From contig VFIW01000140.1 in assembly GCA_006386115.1 (NCBI GenBank), positions 32,370 through 96,369 of the forward strand: a stretch of 64,000 nucleotides of DNA, written 5' to 3'. How positions within the stretch are numbered: the first letter of the stretch is position 1; every line of letters starts with the position of its first letter. Of this stretch, positions 21,607-44,100 are shown piece after piece. A program made the translations under genes and the position numbers. The notes below the pieces were generated by a model. That model was not told the origin of the DNA and did no database searches. It was given only the letters and a program-made list of their open reading frames with translations. The DNA is from Globisporangium splendens (taxonomy: Eukaryota; Oomycota; Peronosporomycetes; Pythiales; Pythiaceae).

Positions 21607-23142
21607 ATGGCGACGAACAAATCAGTGCGCGAAAAGATCGCCCGAAGCGCGAGCGGTCCTGCAGAAGGACTCGTTCAAAGACTGCAGAAGCTCGACGCTG
21701 AGAAGCGCGAGGCGGCAAGCGCAAAACAACGCGCTGCCGCTGCGGTCACGTCTGCCACGGAAGACGTGAGCAAGAGCGACGACGAGTCGACTCAATCGAA
21801 GACTGCTCCTGACGGTGTCAGTGAGCTGCAATTTGGCGATCTCCCTGCCATCAAGCCGATGAGCGGGGCAAGCGACGCCGATGACGACACGGCAGTCGAC
21901 TACCAAGAGTACTCACCCGAGGAAGGGGAGGAAGAGGAAGGCATCACCGTGAGGCGCGACTCCATCGACGAGTGGGTCGAGTATGAGGAGCTGCGTTACG
22001 GGAGCGGTAGCCCCGAACTGCACGAGTTGGAGCGAAATCACTCGGCAGACGTCTCGATTTATCGGACGGAGGAAGAGAATGACGTCGCAAAGACTGTCAA
22101 TGAAAGGGAGAAGAGGGAGGTCGTCATTACCAATAATGAGACCGGACTGGAACCACCACCAAAAGGTTCCGTCCATTTTTCGCTTCCCGTTATGCCGCCG
22201 CCAAAGGAATGGCCGACAGCGAAAACCCCGGCAAATTTACTTGCACGGGCGCGGGTTCCACTCGAGAGGTATGACTCCGAGTTCGCACGATGGCGCGAAG
22301 CCGATCTGCGAGGACGTGATGGGGCACTGCGCGTGCACCCGATCCCGGTTATCCTTTACGAAGGTGAGACCGAGGATCAATACGAAACCGCGTTCTTGGC
22401 ATCAAGAACTGGTGTGAAACGCTTTGGGGCTGCGCGTACATTGGCCACCGATCCTGGGGCACAACGTAGCCAGCGCATGCAATTCGCTGTGCAGCGCGTA
22501 CAAAAGTACCGCGAAGCAACAAAGAGTGATGACAGTGCTCGCACGAGTCTCGGTATTAACAAGCGACAGATGGACGAGTCTCACTCGCCATCAACGCACG
22601 CTCAAAAGCGGCGACCATGTCGGGAACGTCTTCGAGGAGGCGCTCAGCAGGCTCCCATGAGCTCTGCGACAAATCGTACCCACGCCACTTCACAAGGTAG
22701 TGGGTGTTCCCCTTGCGCCGCTGCACACGCAGCAGGCGCTCGACATGGTAGTGGCGCTGTCCCTGCTTATCAATCAGCGGGACCCGTGGCGCCCTACCGC
22801 GCTTCAGCATCGGTGGTTGCACCAGATGCGATGGTTCAGATGGTTCACGCGAACGCATCGTCTTTGGGGGCGCTACAGCAAGACGTCCGTGCCCTTCACC
22901 AGCAATATCTGGACGAGACCTCGCTGTTAAAGCAGAGGGTGACGGCGCTTGAGACGGAGCTGAAGGAAGCTCGTCAGATGCTGGAGGAGTACCATGTCCG
23001 CGGAAAGAACTTCCACGCGAGGTACGCTCCGCGAGTGAAGACGCTTTGGGAGAGGCACAACGCGCTCGTGTCTCGATGGGCGGCGTCTGAGCCCCCTGAC
23101 GAGATCGACGTGCTCCCGCACTGGGATAAGAATCCGCAGTAG
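21607..23142 (+). CDS. Antisense accessory ORF of Gypsy-2, unknown protein with C-terminal coiled coil
   Basis: A 511-residue open frame running opposite to the element, from an ATG (MATNKSVREK) 165 bases inside the 3' LTR to TAG at 23140. It overlaps the last 587 bases of pol (from 22556). The N-terminal half is charged, with an acidic run (EYSPEEGEEEEG) and an Arg-rich segment. The C-terminal 90 residues are heptad-rich (LKQRVTALETELKEARQMLE), a likely coiled coil, ending with WERHNALVSRW. I recognise no family. A similar arrangement, not an obvious sequence match, exists in Gypsy-1 at 33701-34765. Coding status is inferred from its length, the non-overlapping first 950 bases and the recurrence of the layout. 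It is lost from the truncated copy at 41137-47010. Confidence 0.65.
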   Translation: MATNKSVREKIARSASGPAEGLVQRLQKLDAEKREAASAKQRAAAAVTSATEDVSKSDDESTQSKTAPDGVSELQFGDLPAIKPMSGASDADDDTAVDYQEYSPEEGEEEEGITVRRDSIDEWVEYEELRYGSGSPELHELERNHSADVSIYRTEEENDVAKTVNEREKREVVITNNETGLEPPPKGSVHFSLPVMPPPKEWPTAKTPANLLARARVPLERYDSEFARWREADLRGRDGALRVHPIPVILYEGETEDQYETAFLASRTGVKRFGAARTLATDPGAQRSQRMQFAVQRVQKYREATKSDDSARTSLGINKRQMDESHSPSTHAQKRRPCRERLRGGAQQAPMSSATNRTHATSQGSGCSPCAAAHAAGARHGSGAVPAYQSAGPVAPYRASASVVAPDAMVQMVHANASSLGALQQDVRALHQQYLDETSLLKQRVTALETELKEARQMLEEYHVRGKNFHARYAPRVKTLWERHNALVSRWAASEPPDEIDVLPHWDKNPQ

Positions 23143-26100
23143 CGTCATGGTAGCGTTTCAGCAAACCCACGTAAAACACGGGGTGCGTTGCCATTCGCGT
23201 TGGGAGATCGAGCTTGTAATTCAAGTCTCCAATCTTCTCCACAACAGTGTATGGCCCGATGAATCGTGGCAACAACTTACTCCCGCTGGGGAGCATTGTG
23301 ACTGCATCGTTTGGTAGGTTTTTAATGCTTAAAAGCACTTTATCACCCACACAAAACGTTTGTTTGTTCTTTCTACCCGATTTATCGGCGTAGAGCTTTT
23401 GCTTGTCTTGCGCAGCAGCTAGCTGGTCGCGTACGCGACGCAACAATGCTGCGCGCTCATCGACAAATTGGCGCGCTGCCGCGACGGCTTTGTCTTGCTT
23501 TTTCGTTGCTCTCGCAGCGCGTGCTGCAGAGAGATCTATTTCTGCGCCGGTGGGTGACACCGCGCGCCCTCCCTTTCGTGGCTGACGCTCGCACGAGCAG
23601 TCGCCTGATTCTGTCTGAGACTGGCTATTTTTGGCATGAGTACCGTAACTCGGTACCGTGGGAGATCGATCTATAGGGACACGAGTACCGTAACTCGGTA
23701 CCGTGGGAGATCGATCTATAGGGACACGAGTACCGTAACTCAGTACCGTGTTTTTCTCTCCAAATGTGGAACGCGTGCCGTCCGGTAAGACCGTGACAGA
23801 TTCGAAGTGCGACCGCACAGGTGGCGCATCGCGCGCGTCCACGTGAGCGGTTAACGCCACGTCTGGTGACGGAGGTCGCGCACTCGCATCGAGCGCAGCG
23901 AGTTGCCCTCCCACCGCAGAATATTCGACGCCCTCAAACAGAGTGGCGGGTACGCGCGGGTGCCGCAGCGAGTTAAAATAGAACGGAGTCACGGCCGTAG
24001 AGGCGTGCTCACTGCTATTTATAGCAAACTCGGCGTACGGCAGCCAGCGGCTCCAGTCGCGGGGATGATCGACAGCGATGCTGCGAAGAATATCCTCGAC
24101 GACACGGTTTACGCGCTCGGTTTGCCCGTCTGTCTCGGGATGATCGGCAGTGGACATCGCCAGATCTGTGCCGAGCAGGCGGAAGAGTTCGCGCCAAAAG
24201 GCAGCGGTGAAACGCGGGTCCCGGTCTGATACAATAGACTCGGGCAAGCCGTGATAGCGGAACACGTGCTCTAAAAATAGGCACGCCGTCTCTTGCGCAG
24301 TGACATGCTTGCGCACAGGTACAACGTGCACCATTTTGCTCAGTCGGTCGACGAACACGACGACGCCTGTGTTGCGCGCCTTGTCTTCCGGGAAACCGAA
24401 GACGAAATCCATGCTGACCGACTTCCAGCAATCTTGCGGAATCGGCAGCGGCGCTTTGTTCTTGCCCGCAGGCTTCACGCGCTGGCACTGTTCGCATGAA
24501 CGTACATAATTGGCCACCCATTTGTACTGGTGTGGCCACCAAAACACATTGGACACTTGCAAGAAGGTCTTTTCACGCCCCAGATGCCCACTCGCTGGCG
24601 CATCGTGAAACTCATGAAGGATCGAAAGTTTCAGATCCTGGTCATGCGGTACATACACACGCGGGTAATCGAAGTTGGACAGTTGATGCCACAATAACCC
24701 GTCGTGATAACTAAACCGAGCAAGCTTTGACTCGAGTTTGGCAGGCAATGACTCTTTCGACGAGCCGTCAAAGTGAGCAATCAACAAGCGACATTCATCG
24801 TCCTTTGGATAAAGCGACTGAATATTGTCCTTGAGCTTTGTTTGCACTCGACTGATGCTCAGATGCATGAGATCAGGAGCGCGCTCTGAACACAGAGCGT
24901 CGGCGCTGTTGTCAACGCTCGACTCGTAATCTGGACGGCGCGAAAGCGCGTCCGCCAGAACATTTTCCTTTCCCGGCTTGTATTCGACCCGAAAGTTGAA
25001 CTCGGAGAAGAATGCAAGCCATCGCGCCATTCGCTGCGATAAATGGGGGGAATTGATCGCGGTCCGCAAGGACGCGTGATCCGTGTACACAACGAACGGT
25101 GTCGCACCCAAAAGGTGGACCCTGAACTTCAAGAGGGCGTACTTGATCGCAAGCAGCTCCTTGTCGTGCACAGGATAATTCTTTTCAGCTGCTTTAAGCA
25201 GTCTGCTTTGGTATGATACGACGCGCTCATGGCCGTCATCATCCTTCTGCATCAGCGCACAGCCGATTGCAAAATCGCTGGCATCGCACACGACACTGAA
25301 AGCTTTCGTGTGGTCCGGCAACGCCAGGACAGGAGCGCGAACAAGCGACTCCTTCACGTCAATGAATGCATTCATGACATCGCTGGTCCAGTCCCATTCG
25401 ACATCCTTTTTCAAGAGATGCGTGAGTGGACGGACTCTCGCCGCATAGTTGTGGCTGTACTTGTGCAAATAGTTTGCCAAGCCAAGCCACTTGCGCAAAT
25501 CCTTGACGTTCTTTGGGATCGGCCAGTCGGCGATCGCCTTGATCTTCTCTGGGTCCGCGCGGACTCCAGCTTTGCCAACATAGCACCCCAGGATCGGAAT
25601 CTCTGAGGCGCCAAAGATGCACTTCTTCAGGTTGCAATACAGACTGTTGTCTCGTAAGCACTGCAACACTGAGCGCAAATGTCTCTTGTGCACGTCAACG
25701 GCACTGAGATCTCCTTCGGCACGACTGTGCACGAAGATGTCATCGAAGTAGCTCGGTGCGTACGCACGATGAGGACGCAGAAGATGCGTTACCAGACGAT
25801 TGAACGTCGCTGGTGCATTCTTCAGACCTTGCGGCATAACGAGCCACTCCCACAGCATTCCGCTGGGTGTGCTTACTGCCGTCAAGGGAACGTCACTCTC
25901 TCGCATGAGGATCTGATAGAACCCATCCATCAGATCCAATGCTGAGAACACAGTTGAGCCGCCCATGGAGTCGATCAAGACATCCTTTCTTGGGATCGGT
26001 GTTTGTGCTGGAATGGTGGCGGCGTTCAGCTTGTTGAAAGCGTGAACAATGCGCCAGCCACCAGTCGCTTTCCGCACACAAAACGTGGGTGAGCTATGTG

Positions 26101-27742
26101 GAGACTTGCTTTCTCTCACATGACCGGCGAGGGCTCGTTTCGCGAAGAACTCGTCGATAGCCTCAACCTGCTCGCGGGGCAGCGGCCATTGTCTGGTCAC
26201 GCAATATTTGCTCCCGGGCTCGAGGTCAATCTCGTGCCGTACGCCACGGTCAACGGGCAGGGCACTTGGCACTTTGTCGGGAAACACATCTTTGAACTCC
26301 CACAACAAGTCAAAGTATGGACTGCCTTTCACGGCGTCCCAGTCCTGAGCAGCAAACCGCCTCTGTTTGTCTGACTCCAAAACACTCTCATCCGCAGTGG
26401 ACGAGGTGCACAGTTCGCTACGCGTAAACGCGGTAGGAACGACGATCTCGCGGATCTGATCACGCTCTAGCTCCGTAAGAAAGAGCTCGAAGCTCATTTC
26501 TTCGAGGGATACGATCGCCTCAACGGTACTCGGCAGCCCATGGAGCGCCGCAAATTCAGCGAAGAACACTTCGTCTGATGCGTTTGCTTCCGGACTGCGC
26601 TTTGCGCGTCTGAGTGCCACGTCAACGTGAGCGCGATCTATCGACGGATCCGAGATCCTGTCAAAGGCGCGCAGCGAAGCTGCAGCTGCGTCGAGAGATG
26701 GGGCAATCGTGTGCGAGGCGGCCGTTTCCTCAGCAACAGATGCCAATGCACTGTCTCTCTTGCGAGCTGACAACTTGCGTCGCCCTCGTCGGTTGATGCG
26801 AACACGCGACCTCGCGGTTCTGAGCTCCAGTACTGCACCGTCAGGGTGGTACGAGCTGGTTGACGCGTGTACACCTGTACTGTCGCTGTCACTTGCGGGG
26901 GCTGGCTCGGATGCTCTGGAGCCGCACACTTGCGCACCAGTGTCCACGTCTGGACTTTCTGGCGCTTCCGCACAAACTGGGCTACCTGCCACAGTGTATC
27001 GCTTCGCTGGGCTACCTGCCTCAGCGTATCTTCTTGCTCGGCTCTCTGCCGCAGCGTGTGTGTTTGAAGCGGGGCTACCTGCCGCCGCGTGTCTTCCAGC
27101 CGGGCTCCCTGCCGCAGCGTGTGCGCTTGAAGCGGGGCTACCTGCCGCCGCGTGTCTTCCAGCTGGGCTCCCTGCCGCAGCGTGTTCAATGCTCACATCC
27201 ATAGCGTGGAAATATTCCCGCAATCTTCGCTCTTCATCAGAGGAAGGGGTGGAGCTCCCGATTGTGCGTGCTCGCCAATCGATCCAAGGCTGATGTTTCG
27301 CCAGCCAAGGCATTCCTAGGATGAGGTCGTACTTCGACCCCATCGCTAGTACTACGAATGTTTCTTTGCAGACAAAGTCGCAAAATCTGAAAGAGAGTTC
27401 AACTCGAACTCCTTCAGTGTGTACTGTCGACCCATCGGCCAGACGTACGATCATCTTCTCGCGCTTGCCAGTGTGGACAAGTCGCTCATACGCTTGCAGA
27501 CTCTGTTTCAGAGCTGACTTAGAGACGAAGTTCTGTGACGCACCGCAGTCAACAAGAACCGTCATTTTCTTCTCATAGCCCTTCACATCGGCGCTATATA
27601 CCAACATCTCACTCGGAGCCTTGTTGCCAAGAGCTCCTGGGACTAAGCTTCCCATCTGCACGACTCTAGTAGTCGGCGACGCCGAAGCTATAGAGTCCGT
27701 CTCAGTAGAGCGTCCCGCTTCTACTGAGACGTTCCGTTTCCC
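22556..27742 (-). CDS. Gypsy-2 copy 1 Pol polyprotein (PR-RT-RH-IN-chromodomain)
   Basis: Pol is open from the frameshift site at 27736-27742 to the stop at 22556, about 1.7 thousand residues, without internal breaks. Numbered from the first in-frame Val/Met near 27661: protease LVDCGAS at about 37, RT active site YFDD at about 638, RNase H VCDASDFAIG at about 790, and an integrase HHCC region near 1010-1060. The catalytic core spans 1080-1200 (SMDFVFGFP, IVSDRDPRF, HPETDGQTERVNR). A GPY/F module (PRFIGPYTVVEK) and a chromodomain (THYLVKWRGYDLSQSSWEP) at about 1635-1690 complete it. Two internal repeat tracts are described separately. The expected product is a polyprotein cleaved by its own protease. 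Confidence 0.92.
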   Translation of the reverse strand, partial: GKRNVSVEAGRSTETDSIASASPTTRVVQMGSLVPGALGNKAPSEMLVYSADVKGYEKKMTVLVDCGASQNFVSKSALKQSLQAYERLVHTGKREKMIVRLADGSTVHTEGVRVELSFRFCDFVCKETFVVLAMGSKYDLILGMPWLAKHQPWIDWRARTIGSSTPSSDEERRLREYFHAMDVSIEHAAAGSPAGRHAAAGSPASSAHAAAGSPAGRHAAAGSPASNTHAAAESRARRYAEAGSPAKRYTVAGSPVCAEAPESPDVDTGAQVCGSRASEPAPASDSDSTGVHASTSSYHPDGAVLELRTARSRVRINRRGRRKLSARKRDSALASVAEETAASHTIAPSLDAAAASLRAFDRISDPSIDRAHVDVALRRAKRSPEANASDEVFFAEFAALHGLPSTVEAIVSLEEMSFELFLTELERDQIREIVVPTAFTRSELCTSSTADESVLESDKQRRFAAQDWDAVKGSPYFDLLWEFKDVFPDKVPSALPVDRGVRHEIDLEPGSKYCVTRQWPLPREQVEAIDEFFAKRALAGHVRESKSPHSSPTFCVRKATGGWRIVHAFNKLNAATIPAQTPIPRKDVLIDSMGGSTVFSALDLMDGFYQILMRESDVPLTAVSTPSGMLWEWLVMPQGLKNAPATFNRLVTHLLRPHRAYAPSYFDDIFVHSRAEGDLSAVDVHKRHLRSVLQCLRDNSLYCNLKKCIFGASEIPILGCYVGKAGVRADPEKIKAIADWPIPKNVKDLRKWLGLANYLHKYSHNYAARVRPLTHLLKKDVEWDWTSDVMNAFIDVKESLVRAPVLALPDHTKAFSVVCDASDFAIGCALMQKDDDGHERVVSYQSRLLKAAEKNYPVHDKELLAIKYALLKFRVHLLGATPFVVYTDHASLRTAINSPHLSQRMARWLAFFSEFNFRVEYKPGKENVLADALSRRPDYESSVDNSADALCSERAPDLMHLSISRVQTKLKDNIQSLYPKDDECRLLIAHFDGSSKESLPAKLESKLARFSYHDGLLWHQLSNFDYPRVYVPHDQDLKLSILHEFHDAPASGHLGREKTFLQVSNVFWWPHQYKWVANYVRSCEQCQRVKPAGKNKAPLPIPQDCWKSVSMDFVFGFPEDKARNTGVVVFVDRLSKMVHVVPVRKHVTAQETACLFLEHVFRYHGLPESIVSDRDPRFTAAFWRELFRLLGTDLAMSTADHPETDGQTERVNRVVEDILRSIAVDHPRDWSRWLPYAEFAINSSEHASTAVTPFYFNSLRHPRVPATLFEGVEYSAVGGQLAALDASARPPSPDVALTAHVDARDAPPVRSHFESVTVLPDGTRSTFGEKNTVLSYGTRVPIDRSPTVPSYGTRVPIDRSPTVPSYGTHAKNSQSQTESGDCSCERQPRKGGRAVSPTGAEIDLSAARAARATKKQDKAVAAARQFVDERAALLRRVRDQLAAAQDKQKLYADKSGRKNKQTFCVGDKVLLSIKNLPNDAVTMLPSGSKLLPRFIGPYTVVEKIGDLNYKLDLPTRMATHPVFYVGLLKRYHDATADSYPSAGARRSRQGAQTPPIETRARCASPKASSLAERTSRGSSFRGHGTPPASDELPSAPSQAPSPSALTARSRPDIAGEGHGRLAVAPPKTMRSREPSEPSHLVQPPMLKRGRAPRVPLIDKQGQRHYHVERLLRVQRRKGNTHYLVKWRGYDLSQSSWEPAERLLEDVPDMVAAFERALMASETRPSVAC
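23636..23752 (-). repeat. 45-bp tandem repeat in Gypsy-2 pol
   Basis: Between the integrase core and the GPY/F module, a 45-bp unit encoding SYGTRVPIDRSPTVP is repeated two to three times. The second Gypsy-2 copy has the same tract (about 41198-41314) with SSTVL in place of one SPTVP. On the plus strand each unit starts GAGTACCGTAACTC. Confidence 0.8.
27000..27190 (-). repeat. Variable-number Ala/Gly/Ser/Pro repeat in Gypsy-2 pol
   Basis: A tandem tract between protease and RT encodes repeated HAAAGSPA-type units. Copy 1 has 63 bp (21 residues) more than copy 2 (44573-44700), that is one extra double unit, with the frame kept. Low-complexity spacer between domains. Confidence 0.85.
27700..27742 (-). 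promoter_or_regulatory. -1 ribosomal frameshift signal of Gypsy-2 gag-pol
   Basis: On the minus strand the heptamer G_GGA_AAC (27736-27742) sits in the gag frame as codons GGA AAC. Six bases later comes a hairpin whose ten-base arms TCTCAGTAGA (27720-27729) and TCTACTGAGA (27700-27709) pair perfectly, with a bulged A and an inner GCG/CGC pair around a GGA loop. The gag stop TAG (27721-27723) lies in the 5' arm. Pol is open in the -1 frame from the heptamer onward. This matches the canonical retroviral signal. Confidence 0.85.
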
Positions 27743-28881
27743 TTTCTTGCCGCAGCGGATCTGCCACCTCGATGAGCGTGGTTACCGCGCGGCGGTTGGT
27801 AGTCTCTCGCCTGATTTCCAGTGCGAGGAGCGGACTGCCTTGGAGCGGGACACTTCGACTGATAGTGTCCTCGCTTGCCACAATTGAAGCAGACCACTTC
27901 GGCGCTGCTAAGATCCATTGGCATCGGGCCATGGAAGCGCTGTCCGTTCGTGACTGCTCGGTGGCTGGTATGCGCACCATTGTGGCGGCCAGCGTTCCAA
28001 TCAGGTCGACTGACTCTGAATGATTGCTGCTCAACGAGCGCAATGCGGATCGCATCTTCCATCGTGGCCGGCAAGCGTCGGTACAGCTCCTGACGCGCTG
28101 GTCCACTGTTGAGGCCGTTGAGAAACGCAGGCACTTTCACAGACTCAGGCAAAGGGCTGGTCGTGATCGCCGCGCATAGACTTCTCATCTCCTGGATGTA
28201 TCGTTCCAGCGAGAGCTTCCCTTGTCTCAAGGAGAAGAAACGACCTTGCAACAGCACTTCGTTGTTCGGAGGCTGATACATGGCGGTGATTTTCGCACGG
28301 AAAATATCCCACGTGTCGAACGCACACTCATCGGCGAGCAACGTCGAGAATGCCCATTCCGACGCTCGACCGCGCAGGTTCGAGGTGGCGAAAGACACCA
28401 TCTGCTCGTTGCTGTCGATGAGCTGAGCCTTGGCGCAACGCTCCACGGCGAGTAGCCAGTGGATGAGCTTGTCGCCATCCGCACCATCGAATTTCGGAGC
28501 GTCAATCTTGACAGCTCTTGGGCGGGGAGTTTGGGACGTTTGTGTCTGAGGCGCAGCAGCCGCACTCGACAAAGACGTGGCTGCACCAGCAACCACAGAT
28601 ACCACTCGCTCGAGCGCTTCACGCGACTCGGCAGCTGAGCGCAGCATCTCTGCGGTCAAGCTTGCGGTGGCTTGCATTTGTGCTTGCGCACTTCGCTCTC
28701 CTTCGAGGCGCTGAGCGTTCGAGAAGTTCTCGAACTGCTCGAGTCGAAAGATTTGCTGCTCCGGCGACGCCGAGAGCAACTCTAGCGCGACTTGGTCGCC
28801 TAGAGCTTGTGCCATTCGGGTCAGCACACTCCGGTGTTCAGCCGAGAGGTGCGGGAACTGCGCAGGGTCAATTGACGCCAT
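27721..28881 (-). CDS. Gypsy-2 copy 1 Gag
   Basis: 386 residues from ATG (MASIDPAQFPHLS). A retrotransposon gag domain occupies the middle (EWAFSTLLADECAFDTW, FFSLRQGKLSLERYIQEMRS). One CCHC zinc knuckle (CFNCGKRGHYQSKC) and a basic, Arg/Gly-rich tail follow. It forms the capsid-like particle and packages the RNA. The stop lies in the frameshift hairpin. It is nearly identical to the Gag at 45231-46391 (I see two to three residue differences). Confidence 0.93.
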   Translation of the reverse strand: MASIDPAQFPHLSAEHRSVLTRMAQALGDQVALELLSASPEQQIFRLEQFENFSNAQRLEGERSAQAQMQATASLTAEMLRSAAESREALERVVSVVAGAATSLSSAAAAPQTQTSQTPRPRAVKIDAPKFDGADGDKLIHWLLAVERCAKAQLIDSNEQMVSFATSNLRGRASEWAFSTLLADECAFDTWDIFRAKITAMYQPPNNEVLLQGRFFSLRQGKLSLERYIQEMRSLCAAITTSPLPESVKVPAFLNGLNSGPARQELYRRLPATMEDAIRIALVEQQSFRVSRPDWNAGRHNGAHTSHRAVTNGQRFHGPMPMDLSSAEVVCFNCGKRGHYQSKCPAPRQSAPRTGNQARDYQPPRGNHAHRGGRSAAARKGNGTSQ

Positions 28882-31593: not shown

Positions 31594-32973
31594 TTAACAA
31601 CCTTGGATGCCGAGATCTTCCGTGAGTTCTTGGTGTCTCGGACCGGACAATCCGTTCGTGAGCAAATCGGCCAACATCGTCGAAGTGCTGCAGTACTCGA
31701 CTTCGACTTCACCGGACTTCACTTCATCACGGATGTGGTGGTACTTGATGTCAATGTGCTTGGCCCGACCATGATTGACTGGGTTCTTCGTCATCTTGAT
31801 GCACGACTGATTGTCTTCGAAAATCACAAGCTTGGGGGATTCAACACCAGCGGCAACCAAAATCTCACACAACAGTCGGTGCACCCACTTGCCTTCTTGG
31901 ATCGCCAAACTGAGAGCAATGTACTCGGCTTCGCTCGTCGAGAGGGACACACTTGACTGTTTCTTGCTTCCCCAACTGATCGGACCACCGGCCAACTTGA
32001 ACACATAGCCGGACGTTGACTTTCGATCAGCAACGTCGCCCGCCCAGTCGGCATCCGAAAAACACTTGAAGTCGAGTTCACCACTTGACTTGAATCGGAT
32101 TCCATGCGACTTGGTGCCTTGCAAGTAGCGAAAGATTCGCTTCACCGCAGTCTAGTGCACGTCTTGCGGGGTTTCCATGAAGCGAGCCACCATGCCGACG
32201 GCAAAGGCAATGCCAGGTCGCGTCGCACACATCAAGTGCATGAGTGCACCGACAGCTTTACGGTAGGGAACATCGATTGTAGGCGCTTGATTTCACCTTG
32301 TACCATCTTCGCGCTGATGTCGACTGGACTCGCGACGGACTTGCAATCTTCCATGCCGAAACGCTTGAGGATGTCGTCGATGCAGCGCCGTTGGCACAAA
32401 GTCACACCACCGTCCTCATGTTCGATCAGTTCGATGCCGAGAACGAACTTGCACGCGCCGCTGTCGGTCATCTCAAAACGCTGCTTGAGTTCATGCTTGA
32501 CTTCAGCAATCAGATCGCTCGAACTTCCGGTCACAACCACGTCGTCGACGTACACCAGAAGCAAAACGCAATGTCCTGCGACGCATTTGATGTAGAGGCA
32601 CGGGTCGAACTTGGACACTTCAAAGCCAATAGAGCGCGCATACTCGTCGAACGTCTCGTTCCATACGCGAGAAGCTTGTTTCAACCCATAGATCGACTTG
32701 AGCAATTTCAGACAGTCGAACTTGTCGTCGACTTCCATGCCTTCCGGAATGAGGATGAACACGAGTTCCTTCATTTGGCCGTACAAAAAGGCAGTGACCA
32801 CGTCAAGTTGGTCGATCGGCCATCCGAGCAGTTTGGCAAGCGCGATCACCATGCGAAGAGTCACGTACTTAACAACTGGCGCAAACGTCTCCGTGTAGTC
32901 GACGCCGTATTTCTGCTTGAAACCCTTCGCGACAAGTCGAGCCTTGTACTTGTTGATCGTTCCATCGGCGTTG
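31594..32973 (-). pseudogene. Copia-1 RT / RNase H remnant
   Basis: Starts at the Gypsy-1 B LTR boundary (32974) inside RT ([21 protein letters not shown]). It carries LLLVYVDDVVVTGSS with the YVDD active site, then RNase H (DADWAGDVADRKSTSGY, LSTSEAEYIALS, FEDNQSCIKMTKNP), ending TAA 31594. There are two lesions relative to the intact copy at 49615-51514: a one-base loss near 32288 (TTT against TTTT) and TGG to TAG near 32151. Confidence 0.88.
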
Positions 32974-33624
32974 TGTAAAAGGGCGCTGTTCCAAACAGTC
33001 CCTTAAACACGGCACACACGCTTGTGCGACGAGGAAGCGATCTCCCGACTTGGAGGGAGGATGAACACTTGAGGGCTTGGTGGTAAAATTGCAACTGAAT
33101 TAAAATGCTTATGGTTCCTGTCGCTACTTGTAAATGAACTCCAAGGGATCCGACAGGTTTTATAACGAAAACCTAAACATACACAATAAAAACTATGAAT
33201 ATGATATATAAAACCTTGGGTACACTGACGTTGAACCCAGGGGATCTCCTGGAAACTTGAACTTGAAGTCCCGTGGAAAATTCCCTGCAAAGTGATTGGC
33301 TACAGCCACTCACTTTAGGTGGCAGAGACACGTCGGTCTCATCACCAGTGCAGTTTCCCAAGTAGGAACCATCACTCAGTACTTGATTAGTACATGGATG
33401 TCATCACTCTGTACTGATTAGTACATGTGAACAACATTCTGCACTGATCAGCACAGAGAGCGCTCGTGACGTCATGGGATGACGTCACATGTGCATGTGG
33501 GGACTGTCGTACTGTAATCCCTTTGTTATTTGTCTCTCCACAATGCACACTGAAGGTGGTGTGTGGCACACTAAATCTGGGAACAGATCCACCTTCATGT
33601 AATGGCTAGGTATAGCCCATTACA
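32974..33624 (-). repeat. Gypsy-1 copy B 3' LTR (type b)
   Basis: 651 bp. Plus-strand ends TGTAAAAGGG and CCCATTACA. It differs from type a mainly near the outer end, where three GTAC-type palindromes (33379-33454) precede the paired TGACGTCA sites. It is several percent diverged from its partner at 39964. Confidence 0.85.
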
Positions 33625-33700
33625 TCATCCCCTCCTTAAAGCCACAAGTACCTTGCGTACTTTTGCAGACCTTTCGGAGCAGTTCACTTTCCAATCGGCC

Positions 33701-34765
33701 ATGAAGCGACCAAGTGACCAAGTGAACCAAGGTGAAGAACGTCCGTTGTCTAAGCGACAGCAGACAGCTCCAGAACTCTTCGACGTATCCTCCATTCTGA
33801 AGAAGAAGGGGGATCTCGAGTTCTACAAGGAGCGGTTCTTCAGTTGGCGTCGGATCAACAATCGTGATGATCCGAACCAACCCATCGCAGCCCAGAGAGA
33901 CTCATGGCGAACGTTTGTTCGTCTTGAGAACGAGAACCAAATGGAGCGTCTTCTTCGTCGCGGCAACGCTCGTGCCGAAAGAAGAACTCCTGCTGACGAC
34001 AGAGCGAATCCCAGCTCTGGTCGTCGTAGTGTCGCTCCTGGCGACGCTACAAGTGGTTCTCGTAGCTGCGGACCACGTCGGGAACATCAGACTCCATCGT
34101 CTGCCGTGGTTCCCACGTGTCCGAGCTCGGTGGATATCCACGCCACCGAACTCTGTAGAAGCGTTGAGGGCTCAACCGCTTCTTCCCACGAGTCGGTCGA
34201 TCTTCATGATCAACAATCGACTCAACCACCCAGCGATGATCTCCCTGAGAGTCTATCAATGGGGGTGGGGCTGAACGCGAAAACGATTGAGCGACTCTGG
34301 AAGTGGAAGAGTGCTCATCACGCTCAGATTGAGACACTGGAAGTTCGCGATGCGATCCTTTCGGATCGGTGCGAGAGCCTCGAGGACCAAGTGAAGGAGC
34401 AGGAGTCGCGGATCGACTCGCTGACCTTTGGTCCCGCTCAGTATCGGGCTTTGGAGTCCCGTTTCGAGCAACGGTTCGAGCAAGTCCAGGGCGAACTTGA
34501 GCGACTCCAAAAGGCTGAGAAGGCTCGTGAAATGCATCACGAACGTCTACTGCGCTCTGTGGAAGAGGCAGGGACGGCTCTTGAGGTACTCCGCAAGGAG
34601 TATAACTCGCGCCTTCTCGTGCTGGAAGCTGTGAAGGAGGAGTCCTTCGATGTGCTTCAGCGCCTTTACGCTGAGAAGAATCTCCAAAGCGATGAGCTGT
34701 TTGCTCTTCGCAATCAAGTGGAGAGTCTTCAAGATCAGCTTGATCGTTTGCGGAAGATCTCGTAG
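33701..34765 (+). CDS. Antisense accessory ORF of Gypsy-1 copy B, coiled-coil protein of unknown function
   Basis: 354 residues from ATG (MKRPSDQVNQGEERP), 77 bases inside the 3' LTR, to TAG 34763-34765, opposite to gag-pol. Its last 719 bases overlap pol from the chromodomain end back through the Pol linker. Residues 1-70 contain a basic, conserved block (PLSKRQQ, then FYKERFFSWRR). Residues about 70-190 are Ser/Arg-rich, opposite the chromodomain. Residues about 190-354 are a long heptad-type coiled coil starting GLNAKTIERLWKWKSAHHA. The counterpart in copy A (62343-63392) is about 75% identical in the coiled coil, with mostly conservative changes. No known domain recognised; an RNA-binding, regulatory or particle-associated role would be speculation. 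Confidence 0.75.
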   Translation: MKRPSDQVNQGEERPLSKRQQTAPELFDVSSILKKKGDLEFYKERFFSWRRINNRDDPNQPIAAQRDSWRTFVRLENENQMERLLRRGNARAERRTPADDRANPSSGRRSVAPGDATSGSRSCGPRREHQTPSSAVVPTCPSSVDIHATELCRSVEGSTASSHESVDLHDQQSTQPPSDDLPESLSMGVGLNAKTIERLWKWKSAHHAQIETLEVRDAILSDRCESLEDQVKEQESRIDSLTFGPAQYRALESRFEQRFEQVQGELERLQKAEKAREMHHERLLRSVEEAGTALEVLRKEYNSRLLVLEAVKEESFDVLQRLYAEKNLQSDELFALRNQVESLQDQLDRLRKIS

Positions 34766-37700
34766 GATCAGCTGATCCGCTTGGAAGGTAAGGCTTTAGT
34801 CTACCCACATAAAATGTAGGGTGTAGACGCATGCGTGTAGGTATGTCTAGCGTGTAGGCATCACCATTGCATTTCACTACCTTGAACGGTCCAATGAACC
34901 TTGGCAGAAGCTTCGAGCTTCCCAAGTTGGACACTGCATGTTCAGGCAGGTTCGCCGTGCTAAGTAATACAAGATCATTGATCTTATACACTTGCTTGTT
35001 CTTCCTTCCGCTCTTGTCTGCTTGCTCCTTTTGCAGATCCTGAGCCTTCGCGATTGCGTCTCGAACAAACCTCACAACGGCTTGTCTCCTCACAACAAAG
35101 TCATCGACTTGCTGTTCCTCACGACTAGTGATGTCGTTGAGGGTTTTCATCGAGTCAAAGTTGGCTTTTAACTCGGCAACAGCATTCAGGTCATACGACG
35201 ACTGCGGCTTATTGCCTTTAGCCGTAGTCCCTCCCCCACTTAAGGTAGAGACCTCACCCATTATGGAAGCAGGCACTCGAGGGTGAATGCCATAGTTCAC
35301 ATAAAATGGAGAGTGACCTGTCGAGACATGTGTGGAGTTGTTCAACGCAAACTCGGCAAGAGGGAGAAACTCACTCCACTCTTTGAAAGACGTTGCGTAG
35401 CTTCGCAACACGTCTTCAAGGACACGATTCACTCGTTCAGTTTGACCATCCGTTTCAGGATGTGCCGCTGTGGATATGGACAACTTGGTGTCCAGAAGTC
35501 CGAACAGTGCACGCCAAAACTTGGACGTAAACCGAGTGTCACGGTCAGACACGATCTCAATGGGCAGGCCATGCAGACGGAATACGACGTCTACAAAGAC
35601 CTTGGCCGTCATTTCGGCTGAGATCTTGTCCGAAACAGGTGCAAGATGGACCATCTTGCTGAATCGGTCCACAAACACAAGGATGCCATTGCGTCCGTGT
35701 TTGTCACGCGGAAGTCCGAATATGAAATCCATACTCACAGACTTCCAACTGTCCGATGGGACAGGTAATGAACGAAGTGGTGCCTGAGTGGAACCAGAAG
35801 GTTTCACTCGTTGGCAGATCTCGCAAGTCCTCACATACTTGCGAACCCACTTGTACATGTGTGGCCAGTAGTAATCCCGGGAAAGACTGAGAAACGTTTT
35901 CTCACGTCCGAGATGGCCACCCGAAGGACTGTCATGGTACTCATACAAGAGTCGATGACGCAGACCTTCGTCGTTGGGAACAACAACCCTTGCTGTATCC
36001 CCTTGTTCAACCGCATAGTACAACAACCCATTGTGTACTCGGAAGCGGTGAACTCGCGACCTTGTGCGCGACGGAAGACCTTGCAGTGCTTTGTCCGAAG
36101 GGTCCTTGAAATACTTCAACAAGTCCTGACACGTTTCGTCAGACTTGTACCCTTCGACGATCTCTTCTCGCACTGTAGTCGTTGCTTGCACCGCGGTCGC
36201 TTGAACATCTTCACAGAGTCGACACGCTCCGTCCGTGTCTTCACTCTTGGTCTTCGGATCGTAATCCGGACGTCTTGACAGCGCATCGGCTAAGATGTTC
36301 GTCTTGCCTGGCTTGTAGTGTACAACAAAGTTGTACTCTGCAAAGAAAGAGAACCATCTCGCCATTCTTTGCGACAAATGAGGAGTCTTTACCGCTGTAC
36401 GCAGCGACGCATGATCTGTGTAGATCGCAAAGCGCTCCTCGCCAAGCAGGTAGACACGGAACTTGACCAAAGAATACTTCATCGCTAGAAGTTCTTTGTC
36501 ATGAACTGGGTAGTTCCGTTCTGCGGGTCGGAGTTGTCGTGACTGATACGACACAACTCGCTCATGACCCTCATCATCGTGTTGCATCAAGGCGCAACCG
36601 ATGGCATAATCGCTTGCGTCGCAAACCACATGGAAAGGCTTGTCGTGGTTTGGCAGAGCCAGCACGGGAGCTTCTCGCAAACTCCTCTTGACTTCGGCAA
36701 ACGCTGCTTGGTGGTCACTGGACCACTCCCACTCAATGTCCTTCTTCAGGAGCTGTGTGAGCGGTTGCACCAACGCTGCATAATTGCGCGTGTACTTGTG
36801 CAAGTAGTTGGCCAGACCCAACCATTGTCTAGCTGTTTGACGTTCTGAGGCACAGGCCAATCGTCAATAGCTTTGACCTTCTCCGGATCGACTCGAACAC
36901 CATGCTTTCCCACAAAGCAGCCGAGAACGGGGATCTCTGGTGCAAAGAATATGCACTTCTTCAGGTTAGCGTAGAGCTTGTTCTCTCGCATGACCTGAAA
37001 GACTTGACGGAGATGGTCAAGATGAACATCAACGTCAGACTTTTCACCCGTGGTTTTACTATGAACGAATATATCGTCAAAGTAACTCGGTGCAAATCCT
37101 CTCAATGGACGAAGTACATTCGTGACCATCCTATTGAAAGTCGCAGGAGCGTTCTTCAAACCCTGTGGCATCACTAACCATTCCCACAGCATACCACTCG
37201 GGGTACTCACTGCGGTTAGTGGTACATCATCTTCGCGCATTCGAATCTGATAGAACCCATCTTTCAGATCGATAGCACTGAAGACAGTACTGCCAACCAT
37301 TCCATCAAGGATCATGTCCTTGCGTGGAACCGGAGTTTGGGCTGGAATGGTAGCGTCGTTCAGCTTGTTGAAAGCGTGAACGATGCGCCAACCACCAGTT
37401 GCCTTCTTCACACAGAAAGTTGGGCTACAATGTGGAGACTTGCTCTCTCGCACATGCCCAGCCTTAGCACGTTGCGCAAAGAACTCGTCGATCGCAACGA
37501 CTTGTTCTCTTGGCAACGGCCACTGTCTTGTGATACAATACTTCGTGCCAGGAAGTATGTCAATCTCATGACGAACGCCTCTATCGAATGGCAGTTCGTC
37601 CGGCACCTTGTCTGGGAATATGTCCTCATATTCCTTGACAAGTTCATACACGGGGTTCGTCTTGAGAGCGTCCCATGACTGCTCCTCGAACTTTTCCTTC

Positions 37701-38809
37701 CGTGTCTTCTCATCGAACACTTCAGCCTCCGTTGCTGATACCGTGTTGATGTCTTCTGCATCGTCAACATCGACGATCATGCAGACCTGCGAAATTTCGC
37801 CTTTCGCTAGGCTACGCTTCAGCGTCTTCTTGCTCATCCATGGCAAGGAAATCAACTCTTCGACTGAGCTTGGAGGATTTTCAATCTTCACGTGACGGAT
37901 TACATCCACGTCACCATCTTCACTGTAGACCGCGATATTCGCAAACTCGCTTGAAATGTCTTGTGCTTGGACACTTCCTTCGTCACCTTGACATGTACCT
38001 TGATCAGGGGCACACGGGACACTCTTCTTGCTGGTCTTCTTCTTCTTCTCTCGGGATGGCTCTTCGGCTCTTTTCCCATTCGTTTCTTCCACGCACATCG
38101 CCTCGCTCTTAGGGTCGATGGCAAAGGAGACAGTCTTTTTCTGGCGCCTGACTGCTCCACCTCCAGTAGTCTTCTTCAAGATGGGTACCGCTCGTGAACA
38201 TGGGGGGCCATCGCACACCGCAATATCACGAGGGTCATCCGGGATCTCTTCCACAGATGTGTAAACCCACACCACTTCATCCGTTGTCACACAGCTCAAG
38301 TCAACATCGCGTGACTTGTCAACGGAGATCTTCATCTTCATCCAGTCAATGCTAGGTTGATAACGCTTCAACCACGGCATTCCCAGAATCAGATCAAACT
38401 TGTCATCGAGGTCGAGTAAAATGAACTCGTCTTCACCTCGGAAATCTTCACACTTCATTGCCAAGCGCACCACGCGCTTCGGCATCTTCACAGTCGACCC
38501 GTTGGCCAACCGGACGATCATCGTCTTGTCTTCATTCGCATCAGGCATTGGTACTTTATGCCTGACGATCACTTCATTTCGAACAAAATTGCTCGACGCA
38601 CCAGTGTCAACCAAAGCACGTAGAGGCGTTGCAATACCGTCTACATGAACTTTGAGAACGATCAAACTTGACGTTTGATTGACACTGTTCTCCCTCGTGG
38701 AAACTGCATGTGCATCATGCACATTGGGGCCAGAGTCCTGTGTTTCCACAACATCCACAGTCCTCTTTTCCGGGCCAGTAGGAGGCCCCGCCCCTACTGG
38801 TCGTTCCCG
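34047..38809 (-). pseudogene. Gypsy-1 copy B Pol polyprotein with one frameshift
   Basis: Pol is entered from the frameshift heptamer at 38809-38815. It contains protease (ALVDTGASSNFV), RT (FSAIDLKDGFYQI, then YFDDIFVHS), RNase H (CDASDYAIGCALM), integrase zinc region and core (DFIFGLP, IVSDRDTRF, HPETDGQTERVNRV), GPY/F (PRFIGPFKVVK) and a C-terminal chromodomain (YRVRWRGYPPSSDTWEP). A single base is missing near 36828, where copy A reads KQLRQWLGLANY and this copy reads KQLDNGW, splitting Pol between RT and RNase H. All other domains look intact. Confidence 0.9.
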
Positions 38810-38815
38810 TTTTTT
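38775..38815 (-). promoter_or_regulatory. -1 ribosomal frameshift signal of Gypsy-1 copy B
   Basis: Heptamer A_AAA_AAC (38809-38815, minus strand) in the gag frame, an eight-base spacer, then arms CCAGTAGG (38793-38800) and CCTACTGG (38775-38782) with an inner GGC/GCC pair and a bulged T. Relative to copy A the inner pair AGC/GCT has changed on both sides. Confidence 0.85.
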
Positions 38816-39837
38816 GAACGTTGGGAACGATCGAACCCACGGCCGCGACCGTAGTTGTTCGAGCGCAAACCCTGTGTCGTTTGCCGGTCAGGCAAAGACA
38901 CTTTGCAGTTCCGAGCGAAGTGACCCGACTTCCCGCAACGGAAGCACTTCCTATCGTTGCGAGGACGCTCATTTCCAGGCGTGGAAATGTACGAGATGTC
39001 CATAGGCTCGGGACCATCATGCGCAACATTCGATTGCCGCATTGGTCTCGACGCAAACCCTTGGAACTTCGCTTGCTTCATGCTGAACTCTTCTTGCATG
39101 GCACGTTCAATGGCTTCGTCCAGCGTCTTGGGATACTCGCGGAACAGTTGGTTCCGAATCGGACCATCGTTCAGACCCGCCATGAACGTCACAACTTGCG
39201 TCGAAACGTCAATCGGCTCGTCAACGATGCTCGACACCAAGTAGCGAGCACGTTGTGCATACGAGTGAAGGTCGAAACGGCCTTGACGAAGCTTGAGGAA
39301 CTCGGCGCGCGCACGGAACTCGCTCTGCGGAGGTTCAAACGCCTTCTTGAGTTCGGTCTTGAAGTCTTCGTAGCTGGGGAAGCAGTTTAGATCCGCTAAA
39401 CGCTTGCCATACGCCCAGCTCTTCGCACGACCCGCAAGGTTGGACATCGCGAACAACACTTGCTGCGAAGGGTCTCGCAGTTGTCTTGCAGTGATGGCTG
39501 CATCCAACTCGACGAACCATCGCGAGAGGGGTTCGTTCTCTCCGCCGCGATACGGAGAGACGTCAAGCTTCAATGGCACCGTCCTGAATGAGGAAACAGG
39601 GGTTGCGACCTGCTTCCGGGAGGACATGATCTCGTGGTGCATGAAGCTGACCACCGCGCTCTTCTGGTCTTCCGGAGACGCCGATCGAAGCAGACTGACC
39701 ACAGCAGCCTCTCCGATGACATCTCGCATGCGCTCAAGCGCCATCCACTCATGAGAAGACAGATGATGGAAACCCTCAATAGTCAACTCGACAGTTTCCG
39801 GTACTGCTGGACCGAGTGGGGTTCCTGTAGCATCCAT
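38794..39837 (-). CDS. Gypsy-1 copy B Gag
   Basis: 347 residues from ATG 39837 (MDATGTPLG); a GTG six bases upstream is less likely. Retrotransposon gag domain in the middle (SRWFVELDAAITARQLRD, FLKLRQGRFDLHSYAQRARY), CCHC knuckle (CFRCGKSGHFARNC) and an Arg/Gly-rich tail ending GNDQ at the frameshift hairpin. Very similar to copy A Gag at 57342-58385. Confidence 0.93.
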   Translation of the reverse strand: MDATGTPLGPAVPETVELTIEGFHHLSSHEWMALERMRDVIGEAAVVSLLRSASPEDQKSAVVSFMHHEIMSSRKQVATPVSSFRTVPLKLDVSPYRGGENEPLSRWFVELDAAITARQLRDPSQQVLFAMSNLAGRAKSWAYGKRLADLNCFPSYEDFKTELKKAFEPPQSEFRARAEFLKLRQGRFDLHSYAQRARYLVSSIVDEPIDVSTQVVTFMAGLNDGPIRNQLFREYPKTLDEAIERAMQEEFSMKQAKFQGFASRPMRQSNVAHDGPEPMDISYISTPGNERPRNDRKCFRCGKSGHFARNCKVSLPDRQTTQGLRSNNYGRGRGFDRSQRSKNGNDQ

Positions 39838-39963
39838 GTCCACGACAAGGATGCTCGCAGGGTCTTCAGTCTTGGGCAGGAATGCGCGACGTGCTCAAAG
39901 CCGCGTCGTCAAACCTTTTCGCTTCACTGGGTCGCTGGAAGGACCGCTCGAAGTGCTACCAGG

Positions 39964-40481
39964 TGTAAAAGGGCGCTGTTCCAAACAGTCCCTTAAACAC
40001 GGCACACACGCTTGTGCCAGAGGAAGCGTCTCCCGACTTGGAGGGAGGAAGGAAGACTTGAGGGCTTGATGGTAAAATTGCAACTGAATTAAAATGCTTA
40101 TGGTTCCTGTCGCTACATGTAAATGAACCCCAAGGGCTCCTAGAGGTTTTATAACTAAAACCTAAACATACACAATAAAACCTATGAATATGATATATAT
40201 AAAACCTTGGGTACACTGAGGTTGAACCCACGAGATCTTCGAGAAGCTTGAACTTGAAGTCCCGTGGAAAATTCCTTGCAAAGTGATTGGCTACAGCCAC
40301 TCACTTTAGGTGGCAGAGACACGTTGGTCTCATCACCTGTGCAGTTTCCCAAGTAGGAACCATCACTCAGTACTTGACCAGTACATGAATGTCATCACTC
40401 TGTACTGATTAGTACATGTGAACAACATTCTGCACTGATCAGCACAGAGAGCGCTCGTGACGTCATGGGATGACGTCACAT
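39964..40481 (-). repeat. Gypsy-1 copy B 5' LTR, truncated
   Basis: 518 bp matching 32974-33490, ending just after the second TGACGTCA. The missing outer 130 bases contain the U3 end. An LTR in the opposite orientation follows directly. Confidence 0.85.
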
Positions 40482-41136
40482 TGTAATGGGCTATACCTAG
40501 CCATTACATGAAGGTGGATCTGTTCCCAGATTTAGTGTGCCACACACCACCTTCAGTGTGCATTGTGGAGAGACAATTAACAAAGGGATTACAGTACGAC
40601 AGTCCCCACATGCACATGTGACGTCATCCCATGACGTCACGAGCGCTCTCTGTGCTGATCAGTGCAGAATGTTGTTCACATGTACTAATCAGTACAGAGT
40701 GATGACATCCATGTACTAATCAAGTACTGAGTGATGGTTCCTACTTGGGAAACTGCGTTGGTGATGAGACCAACGTGTCTCTGCCACCTAAAGTGAGTGG
40801 CTGTAGCCAATCACTTTGCAGGGAATTTTCCACGGGACTTCAAGTTCAAGCTTCTCGAAGATCTCGTGGGTTCAACCTCAGTGTACCCAAGGTTTTATAT
40901 ATCAGATTCATAGGTTTTATTGTGTATGTTTAGGTTTTAGTTATAAAACCTCTAGGAGCCCTTGGGGTTCATTTACAAGTAGCGACAGGAACCATAAGCA
41001 TTTTTAATTCAGTTGCAATTTTACCCTCAAGTACTCAAGTCGTCTTCTCTCCCTCCAAGTCGGGAGATCGCTTCCTCAAGTCGCACAAGCGTGTGTGCCG
41101 TGTTTTGGGGACTGTTTGGAACAGCGCCCCATTACA
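40482..41136 (+). repeat. Solo Gypsy-1 LTR (type b), inverted
   Basis: 655 bp, TGTAATGGGC to GCCCCATTACA, so its ends are inverted copies of each other over nine bases. No target duplication (CACAT left, CTTTC right). On the right it joins Gypsy-2 pol in mid-gene, which suggests recombination rather than simple insertion. Confidence 0.85.
40619..40639. promoter_or_regulatory. Paired TGACGTCA (CRE-type bZIP) sites in the Gypsy-1 LTR
   Basis: Two perfect TGACGTCA palindromes start 13 bp apart (40619 and 40632). The same pair, with the same spacing but a different 5-bp linker, occurs in the type a LTR at 56758 and 56771 and at 20786 and 20799. They sit in the likely U3 region about 140 bp from the LTR edge, where a bZIP factor could drive transcription. 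Confidence 0.6.
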
Positions 41137-44100
41137 CTTTCGTGGCTGACGCTCGCACGAGCAGTCGCCTGATTCTGTCTGAGACTGGCTATTTTTGGCA
41201 CGAGTACCGTAACTCGGTACCGTGGGAGATCGATCTATAGGGACACGAGTACCGTAACTCAGTACCGTGGAAGATCGATCTATAGGGACACGAGTACCGT
41301 AACTCAGTACCGTGTTTTTCTCTCCAAATGTGGAACGCGTGCCGTCCGGTAAGACCGTGACAGATTCGAAGTGCGACCGCACAGGCGGCGCATCGCGCGC
41401 GTCCACGTGAGCGGTTAACGCCACGTCTGGTGACGGAGGTCGCGCACTCGCATCGAGCGCAGCGAGTTGCCCTCCCACCGCAGAATATTCGACGCCCTCA
41501 AACAGAGTGGCGGGTACGCGCGGGTGCCGCAGCGAGTTAAAATAGAACGGAGTCACGGCCGTAGAGGCGTGCTCGCTGCTATTTATAGCAAACTCGGCGT
41601 ACGGCAGCCAGCGGCTCCAGTCGCGGGGATGATCGACAGCGATGCTGCGAAGAATATCCTCGACGACACGGTTTACGCGCTCGGTTTGCCCGTCTGTCTC
41701 GGGATGATCGGCAGTGGACATCGCCAGATCTGTGCCGAGCAGGCGGAAGAGTTCGCGCCAAAAGGCAGCGGTGAAACGCGGGTCCCGGTCTGATACAATA
41801 GACTCGGGCAAGCCGTGATAGCGGAACACGTGCTCTAAAAATAGGCACGCCGTCTCTTGGGCAGTGACATGCTTGCGCACAGGCGCAACATGCACCATTT
41901 TGCTCAGTCGGTCGACGAACACGACGACGCCTGTGTTGCGCGCCTTGTCTTCCGGGAAACCGAAGACGAAATCCATGCTGACCGACTTCCAGCAATCTTG
42001 CGGAATCGGCAGCGGATGCAGCGGCGCTTTGTTCTTGCCCGCAGGCTTCACGCGCTGGCACTGTTCGCATGAACGTACATAATTGGCCACCCATTTGTAC
42101 TGGTGTGGCCACCAAAACACATTGGACACTTGCAAGAAGGTCTTTTCACGCCCCAGATGCCCACTCGCTGGCGCATCGTGAAACTCATGAAGGATCGAAA
42201 GTTTCAGATCCTGGTCATGCGGTACATACACACGCGGGTAATCGAAGTTGGACAGTTGATGCCACAATAACCCGTCGTGATAACTAAACCGAGCAAGCTT
42301 TGACTCGAGTTTGGCAGGCAATGACTCTTTCGACGAGCCGTCAAAGTGAGCAATCAACAAGCGACATTCATCGTCCTTTGGATAAAGCGACTGAATATTG
42401 TCCTTGAGCTTTGTTTGCACTCGACTGATGCTCAGATGCATGAGATCAGGAGCGCGCTCCGAACACAGAGCGTCGGCGCTGTTGTCAACGCTCGACTCGT
42501 AATCTGGACGGCGCGAAAGCGCGTCCGCCAGAACATTTTCCTTTCCCGGCTTGTATTCGACCCGAAAGTTGAACTCGGAGAAGAATGCAAGCCATCGCGC
42601 CATTCGCTGCGACAAATGGGGAGAATTAATCGCGGTCCGCAAGGACGCGTGATCCGTGTACACAACAAACGGTGTCGCACCCAAAAGGTGGACCCTGAAC
42701 TTCAAGAGAGCGTACTTGATCGCAAGCAGCTCCTTGTCGTGCACAGGATAATTCTTTTCAGCTGCCTTAAGCAGTCTGCTTTGGTGTGACACGACGCGCT
42801 CATGGCCGTCATCATCCTTCTGCATCAGCGCACAGCCGATTGCAAAATCGCTGGCATCGCACACGACACTGAAAGCTTTCGTGTGGTCCGGCAACGCCAG
42901 GACAGGAGCGCGAACAAGCGACTCCTTCACGTCAATGAATGCATTCATGACATCGCTGGTCCAGTCCCATTCGACATCCTTTTTCAAGAGATGCGTGAGT
43001 GGACGGACTCTCGCCGCATAGTTGTGGCTGTACTTGTGCAAATAGTTTGCCAAGCCAAGCCACTTGCGCAAATCCTTGACGTTCTTTGGGATCGGCCAGT
43101 CGGCGATCGCCTTGATCTTCTCTGGGTCCGCGCGGACTCCAGCTTTGCCAACATAGCAGCCCAGGATCGGTATCTCTGAGGCGCCAAAGATGCACTTCTT
43201 CAGGTTGCAATACAGACTGTTGTCTCGTAAGCACTGCAACACTGAGCGCAAATGTCTCTTGTGCACGTCAACGGCGCTGAGATCTCCTTCGGCACGACTG
43301 TGCACGAAGATGTCATCGAAGTAGCTCGGTGCGTACGCACGATGAGGACGCAGAAGATGCGTTACCAGACGATTGAACGTCGCTGGTGCATTCTTCAGAC
43401 CTTGCGGCATAACGAGCCACTCCCACAGCATTCCGCTGGGTGTGCTTACTGCCGTCAAGGGAACGTCACTCTCTCGCATGAGGATCTGATAGAACCCATC
43501 CATCAGATCCAATGCTGAGAACACAGTTGAGCCGCCCATGGAGTCGATCAAGACATCCTTTCTTGGGATCGGTGTTTGTGCCGGAATGGTGGCGGCGTTC
43601 AGCTTGTTGAAAGCGTGAACAATGCGCCAGCCACCAGTCGCTTTCCGCACACAAAACGTGGGTGAGCTATGTGGAGACTTGCTTTCTCTCACATGACCGG
43701 CGAGGGCTCGTTTCGCGAAGAACTCGTCGATAGCCTCAACCTGCTCGCGGGGCAGCGGCCATTGTCTGGTCACGCAATATTTGCTCCCGGGCTCGAGATC
43801 GATCTCGTGCCGTACGCCACGGTCAACGGGCAGGGCACTTGGCACTTTGTCGGGGAACACATCTTTGAACTCCCACAACAAGTCAAAGTATGGACTGCCT
43901 TTCACGGCGTCCCAGTCCTGAGCAGCAAACCGCCTCTGTTTGTCTGACTCCAAAACACTCTCATCCGCAGTGGACGAGGTGCACAGTTCGCTACGCGTAA
44001 ACGCGGTAGGAACGACGATCTCGCGGATCTGATCACGCTCTAGCTCCGTAAGAAAGAGCTCGAAGCTCATTTCTTCGAGGGATACGATCGCCTCAACGGT

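Follow-up and report, generated by a model that had tools for sequence, protein, structure and literature searches.

The window analysed here, a 64-kb stretch of DNA from the plant-pathogenic oomycete Globisporangium splendens, contains a retrotransposon with a long open reading frame (ORF) on the strand opposite to its own genes. We consider it likely that this frame is a protein-coding accessory gene of an oomycete chromovirus, antisense to gag-pol, with a putative promoter on the internal side of the 3′ LTR and a coding region that in part overprints the terminal portion of pol. That the antisense frame codes for a protein and is under selection is, in our judgement, almost beyond doubt.

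The antisense ORF (P0001) runs from 33701 to 34765 on the forward strand, starts with ATG and has 354 codons without a stop, as an earlier note on this DNA had claimed for a frame opposite to gag-pol. The same note placed its start 77 bp inside the 3′ LTR. This LTR, 652 bp long and bounded by TG...CA, occupies 32973 to 33624 on the reverse strand, and the polypurine tract of the element (33625 to 33640, reverse strand; TTTAAGGAGGGGATGA) precedes its TG; given these boundaries, the ATG lies 76 nt from the LTR edge on the internal side of the element. The gag gene (38794 to 39843, reverse strand) gave Retrotrans_gag and zinc-knuckle matches, and is followed on the same strand by the protease-RT part of pol (36746 to 38758) and by the part that contains RNase H, integrase, SH3_Tf2-1 and chromodomain (34047 to 36860). 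In the Pfam scan the element therefore has the features of a Ty3/gypsy chromovirus, namely gag, the order protease-RT-RNase H-integrase and a C-terminal chromodomain. With pol ending at 34047, it shares with the antisense ORF 719 of the 1065 nt (two thirds of the ORF), the very length given in the earlier note. The Pol chromodomain (aa 877-936; 34053 to 34232, reverse strand; PF00385, E 1.1e-11) is within the overlap, and the S/P/R-rich linker between SH3_Tf2-1 and the chromodomain (34233 to 34787, reverse strand) faces the antisense coiled coil described below. In the focal copy Pol is split over two frames at 36746-36860, the frame of the protease-RT part differing from that of the remaining pol. 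The 5′ LTR (39963 to 41137) is interrupted, its truncated end at 40481 abutting a complete inverted LTR at 40482-41137. A second copy of the antisense ORF in the window, copy A (62343 to 63392, reverse strand), belongs to another subfamily and has the same start, frame and end, as had been claimed; an in-frame TGA at codon 74 had been overlooked.

Long antisense ORFs opposite coding sequence can arise by chance, and the window has other ORFs of 150-390 aa facing larger ORFs; the frame might then be open merely through the codon usage of Pol and base composition, without being a gene. The first codon positions of the antisense frame face the first positions of Pol, its second positions face Pol third positions and its third positions face Pol second positions. 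Beyond the ORF, this antisense phase meets 23 further stops in the remaining part of 34047-36860, the first of them at 34817, directly past the ORF end, and 26 stops opposite 36746-38758. The open antisense frame exceeds chance expectation. Outside pol, where 346 nt correspond to codons 1-115, dN/dS was 0.19-0.38 in nine out of ten chosen copy pairs and 1.23, on only 5 changes, in the tenth; some of these values are rough because dS was above 1 in several pairs, and the pairs are not independent because the subfamilies recombine. This constraint on codons free of pol is not what a frame kept open by Pol alone would give. Polymorphism was analysed in 20 family-1 and 30 family-2 copies of the antisense ORF, over codons 1-115 and 179-353. 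The ratio of nonsynonymous to synonymous changes was 63:44 for singletons vs. 27:47 for changes present in at least three copies (Fisher p 0.004), a shift that fits the expectation for selection during multiplication of the element and decay after insertion.

Given the phase relation of the two frames, changes inside the overlap were scored by their effect in both of them. In codons 179-353, which face the Pol linker, the antisense ratio was 0.32-0.61, with a bootstrap upper limit below 1 in all six pairs, whereas the Pol ratio in the same pairs was 0.79-1.98 and no Pol-frame constraint was detected. Opposite the chromodomain (codons 116-178), it was the Pol ratio that was low (0.27-0.58, upper limit below 1 in 3/6 pairs), while the antisense interval spanned 1 in all six pairs, one of which gave a point estimate of 3.0. 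As a control, the 650 nt directly past the ORF, coding for integrase, were analysed; the changes at Pol third and second positions were 27:3, 60:8, 60:16, 58:17, 71:21 and 63:11. In the linker of the same six pairs this order is reversed, with 52-81 changes at Pol second positions and 27-37 at third positions. The changes thus avoid antisense second positions, which are Pol third positions, the opposite of the adjacent control and a further point against a frame without a product. In the linker, the focal copy and copy A differ at 46 of 175 antisense residues vs. 71 of 174 Pol residues, close to the counts reported earlier (about 41 of 165 and about 70 of 177). The statement derived from those counts, that of the two frames the antisense is under the stronger constraint, holds opposite the linker only and fails opposite the chromodomain, where the Pol frame is constrained. 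The Pol frame is open through the overlap to its usual end in 57 of 61 copies, and therefore both proteins are probably made. These results suggest that constraint on the overlap is divided, Pol keeping its chromodomain and the antisense gene its coiled coil.

The structure of the antisense protein was predicted with AlphaFold2 from 18 sequences, and the model had an overall pTM of 0.28. A predicted N-terminal helical domain (residues ~29-95; 33785 to 33985, forward strand), clear of pol and with the conserved columns LFDI..EFY..FF.WR..SW.TFV.LENE, is modelled as helices within 30-94, with block pLDDT 67-87 up to residue 90. Confidence is low at 1-27, 95-137 and 139-185, with pLDDT below 50 for the last two stretches; codons 116-178 (34046 to 34234, forward strand), which face the Pol chromodomain, have low confidence and are probably disordered. 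The C-terminal part is predicted as a single 167-residue helix (187-353; 34259 to 34759, forward strand), with block pLDDT 87-98 from residue 191. Its hydrophobic residues recur with a period of 3.5 residues, and none of 2000 shuffles was as strong, which supports the coiled coil that had been proposed from the sequence. Heptad periodicity was not found in the S-, P- and R-rich Pol linker encoded by the same DNA (p 0.99). Since the low-confidence stretch faces the chromodomain and the S/P/R linker faces the helix, each frame puts a low-confidence or low-complexity stretch opposite the domain of the other. A heptad pattern present in the antisense protein and absent from the Pol linker again argues against an accidental frame and, together with the two lines of codon evidence above, makes that explanation extremely improbable. 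At the N-terminus, the antisense protein carries KR...KRQR, which we take to be a bipartite-NLS-like pattern. A Pfam scan of the protein up to E 1 revealed neither PF04195 (TRP28) nor a bZIP match, no Gag family was matched in the scan, and comparison of the predicted fold gave no decisive match.

An INR+FPR-like block that resembles an oomycete core promoter (TCACTTTCCAAT; 33684 to 33699, forward strand) starts 17 nt before the ATG. In oomycete core promoters, INR is YCAYTYY, FPR is MWTTTNC and the usual distance to the ATG is 50-100 nt (PMC3599244). The focal block fits INR and, after 2 nt, matches FPR at 5 of 7 bases by hand count; its distance to the ATG is shorter than usual. The pattern used in the searches, TCAYTYYNCAWT, was chosen after the sequence had been seen. 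Allowing at most one mismatch, it occupied the same position in 60 of 61 copies, and in the last one it was shifted by 1 nt toward the ATG. The focal block is its sole forward-strand match in the window, where 0.5 are expected per strand; the reverse strand has four matches, one at the equivalent site before copy A and three elsewhere. Between subfamilies, 10-12 of 12 bases are identical at -17 to -6 in all five pairs compared, against 1-5 of 12 at -29 to -18 and 3-6 of 12 at -41 to -30 in the same pairs.

This promoter-like footprint would also be compatible with an antisense RNA as the functional product, controlling the element through dsRNA or small RNAs, with the protein incidental. Antisense transcripts of retrotransposons may indeed play non-coding roles (PMC7264820). 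An RNA role alone, however, predicts neither amino-acid constraint nor heptad periodicity, and we regard it as very unlikely to be the whole explanation, although both roles can coexist. A protein-coding gene accounts better for the data.

The genome searched comprises 53.3 Mb in 195 contigs, and the published draft genome of G. splendens is 53.3 Mb (PMC7163027). Three family queries against it gave 115, 110 and 116 scored matches listed, and 79 of the 116 rows of the third were merged. The merged family queries correspond to at least 249 distinct loci, with an in-frame stop in 44 of the 249 and none in 205; among the matches listed, loci of at least 990 nt contain an in-frame stop in 39 of 228 cases. 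The listed and fetched copies are the best-scoring protein matches, a non-random sample biased toward intact frames, and for this reason the figure of three copies with an in-frame stop among the 61 compared (2 in the window and 59 fetched) is optimistic. Relaxed constraint across copies, which had been proposed as the sign of a frame without function, was not observed, and stops occur in a minority of the listed loci. A count starting from pol used 96 integrase copies, the best of 962 candidates. A listed antisense homologue adjoins 73 of these 96 on the opposite strand; 20 of the remaining 23 were fetched, and 19 have at least a piece of the antisense ORF, many of these pieces being partial or frame-broken, and one has none. 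At least a piece of the ORF therefore stands beside 92 of the 93 integrase copies examined (from the best 96 of 962 candidates). A Pol frame of at least 1500 aa is open in 42 of the same 96 copies; the focal element copy is probably non-autonomous, despite its intact antisense ORF.

Comparison of identity along copy pairs showed that the coiled-coil block (approximately nt 600-1000 of the ORF) is swapped between subfamilies as a whole. Identity of the focal copy to copy L021 is 68-78% in this block and 87-99% in the flanking 100-nt bins, from the LTR edge into integrase. Among the antisense-gene subfamilies, L055 is a recombinant with a family-3 N-terminus and a family-2 coiled-coil block, and L058 is a family-2 copy holding a family-3 coiled-coil block. 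In L059 and L060, otherwise similar copies, the coiled coil varies in length by precisely one heptad (7 residues, 21 nt).

Exchange of the block as a unit would fit self/non-self specificity, and raises an alternative in which the antisense protein, instead of assisting the element, is a coiled-coil restriction factor that assembles together with Gag or integrase and keeps copy number down. Ty1 p22 is a restriction factor and offers a model for such limitation of copy number. A promoter-like block of its own and a long helix predicted to oligomerise would be in keeping with this role; on the other hand, no Gag family was matched in the Pfam scan, and a purely self-limiting gene would less readily, though it could, persist next to almost every integrase copy examined. 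We consider this alternative rather unlikely, although it deserves more weight than the antisense RNA.

The protein might also descend from a host gene that was captured, inserted backwards near the 3′ LTR and later overlapped by an extended Pol. Its N-terminal part is clear of pol and, in the model, looks globular, as such an origin would suggest. No host gene family stands out among the 84 + 90 database matches, within the limited sensitivity of these searches; the matches are named as hypothetical proteins of G. splendens, in one case as Copia protein-like, and otherwise carry automated metagenome names such as SlyX and chromosome segregation ATPase. On these grounds capture is an unlikely origin, a little less probable to us than restriction. 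Metagenome relatives of the antisense protein have 43-86% identity, and a profile search, of limited sensitivity, reached no other named organism. The public annotation lists antisense ORFs from these elements among the genes of G. splendens, under FI667_g names. The G. splendens annotation drew on transcriptome hints (PMC7163027). Gene models of G. splendens make up 65 of the 84 database matches, which means that oomycete gene sets count such retrotransposon ORFs as host genes.

Two other chromovirus families were compared with the focal one, which we continue to read as carrying a protein-coding antisense accessory gene. In the second family, an antisense ORF of 511 aa (P0092; 21607 to 23142, forward strand) overlaps the last 587 nt of pol (22556 to 27781, reverse strand) in the same phase, and has 86 genome matches, 15 of which contain a stop. 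The third family was located via its chromodomain, with 8 stretches fetched out of 150 chromodomain matches: four belong to the third family and all have their antisense ORF open (533-536 aa); the other four are from the second family, with the antisense ORF open in two and broken in two. The third-family ORF of 536 aa (L085:473-2080, outside the window) also overlaps pol and has 81 genome matches. From the coordinates, the antisense frames of all three families share the same phase relative to pol. Outside pol, dN/dS in the second family was 0.33-0.39 for pairs with dS above 0.6 and 0.50-0.82 in four closer pairs; in the third family it was 0.28-0.37. Opposite the chromodomain, the second-family antisense ratio was 1.31-2.33 in 7 of 10 pairs, with a Pol ratio of 0.31-0.38, and the third-family antisense ratio was 0.74-1.38. 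In the remaining, C-terminal overlap changes are few in both families; the antisense intervals span 1 in all three second-family pairs, and the third-family antisense ratio was 0.19-0.32. A C-terminal heptad signal is present in the second family, and none was detected at the third-family C-terminus (p 0.25). The N-terminal domains of the focal and third families are weakly alike (hhalign E 2.4e-4 in one comparison, probability 44%, none of 60 column shuffles as good), and that of the second family showed no clear relation. By eye, no block like that of the focal copy was seen in the regions upstream of the ATG in the second and third families. As a tentative proposal, to which we give somewhat less than even weight, oomycete chromoviruses as a group may carry an ancient antisense regulatory gene, its coiled coil having been overprinted on the Pol linker. 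The shared phase of pol and antisense frame would then predate the divergence of the families, and the coiled-coil block would be swapped as a specificity module. If this is true, the gene would be an independently evolved retrotransposon counterpart of the retroviral antisense regulators.

How the focal gene might work can be outlined as follows. The INR+FPR-like block would be the site of transcription initiation, and the antisense gene would therefore be controlled apart from gag-pol. The protein may enter the nucleus by means of its KR...KRQR N-terminus and oligomerise through the 167-residue helix, while the N-terminal helical domain would bind a target that may be nucleic acid, chromatin or a protein of the element. 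Acting in this way, it could have an accessory part in regulating how the element itself is expressed or integrated. A role as nuclear regulator, suggested by architecture and analogy, seems to us somewhat less likely than not.

The nearest known systems are the antisense additional ORFs of plant gypsy elements, which the earlier note had also named as known. In published descriptions, aORF-3R (maize Grande gene23, rice RIRE2, Silene Retand) and fungal Boty are placed between pol and the 3′ LTR; aORF-3R is kept in most copies, its function is given as unknown, and a nuclear product and an own promoter are reported for Grande gene23 (PMC7264820, PMC11963269). Like aORF-3R, the focal ORF is found on the strand opposite to gag-pol in the 3′-terminal part of the element, adjoins the 3′ LTR, is present in most copies and is conserved like other element proteins. 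Unlike aORF-3R as placed in those descriptions, it overlaps pol, including the chromodomain; because 719 of its 1065 nt do so, we consider it a variant rather than a plain member of aORF-3R. Retand is described as a non-chromovirus, whereas the focal host is an oomycete chromovirus, and unlike the TRP28 antisense proteins of Retand the focal protein has no PF04195 match up to E 1. The literature, mostly open access, was searched by title and abstract start, and among the matches listed there was no oomycete or pol-overlapping antisense accessory ORF, in agreement with the earlier statement that no oomycete precedent was known. Antisense accessory ORFs are already known in plants and fungi; what is new is a set of such ORFs in an oomycete that overlap pol with divided constraint. 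With them, the known range of antisense accessory genes comes to include a distant eukaryotic lineage as well as chromoviruses.

HBZ of HTLV-1 is a bZIP protein, and the focal protein has no bZIP match; host and element are also unrelated, so that the likeness to HBZ and other retroviral antisense proteins is one of analogy only. It consists in a gene that starts at the 3′ LTR end and a predicted coiled-coil product that is possibly nuclear. For HBZ itself, an antisense promoter and a nuclear protein are reported (PMC7264820, PMC11963269).

Pairs of antisense genes that are overprinted and divide the constraint between them are a familiar concept. As in those pairs, the two strands of the overlap share DNA and are constrained in different segments; unlike them, the present pair exists in many retrotransposon copies and the partner is the Pol chromodomain. 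It thus represents an unusually clean natural case of opposite-strand proteins dividing one DNA stretch, with hundreds of copies for statistics, and brings the role of LTR retrotransposon antisense accessory proteins within reach of tests in a group of hosts whose promoter motifs are known.
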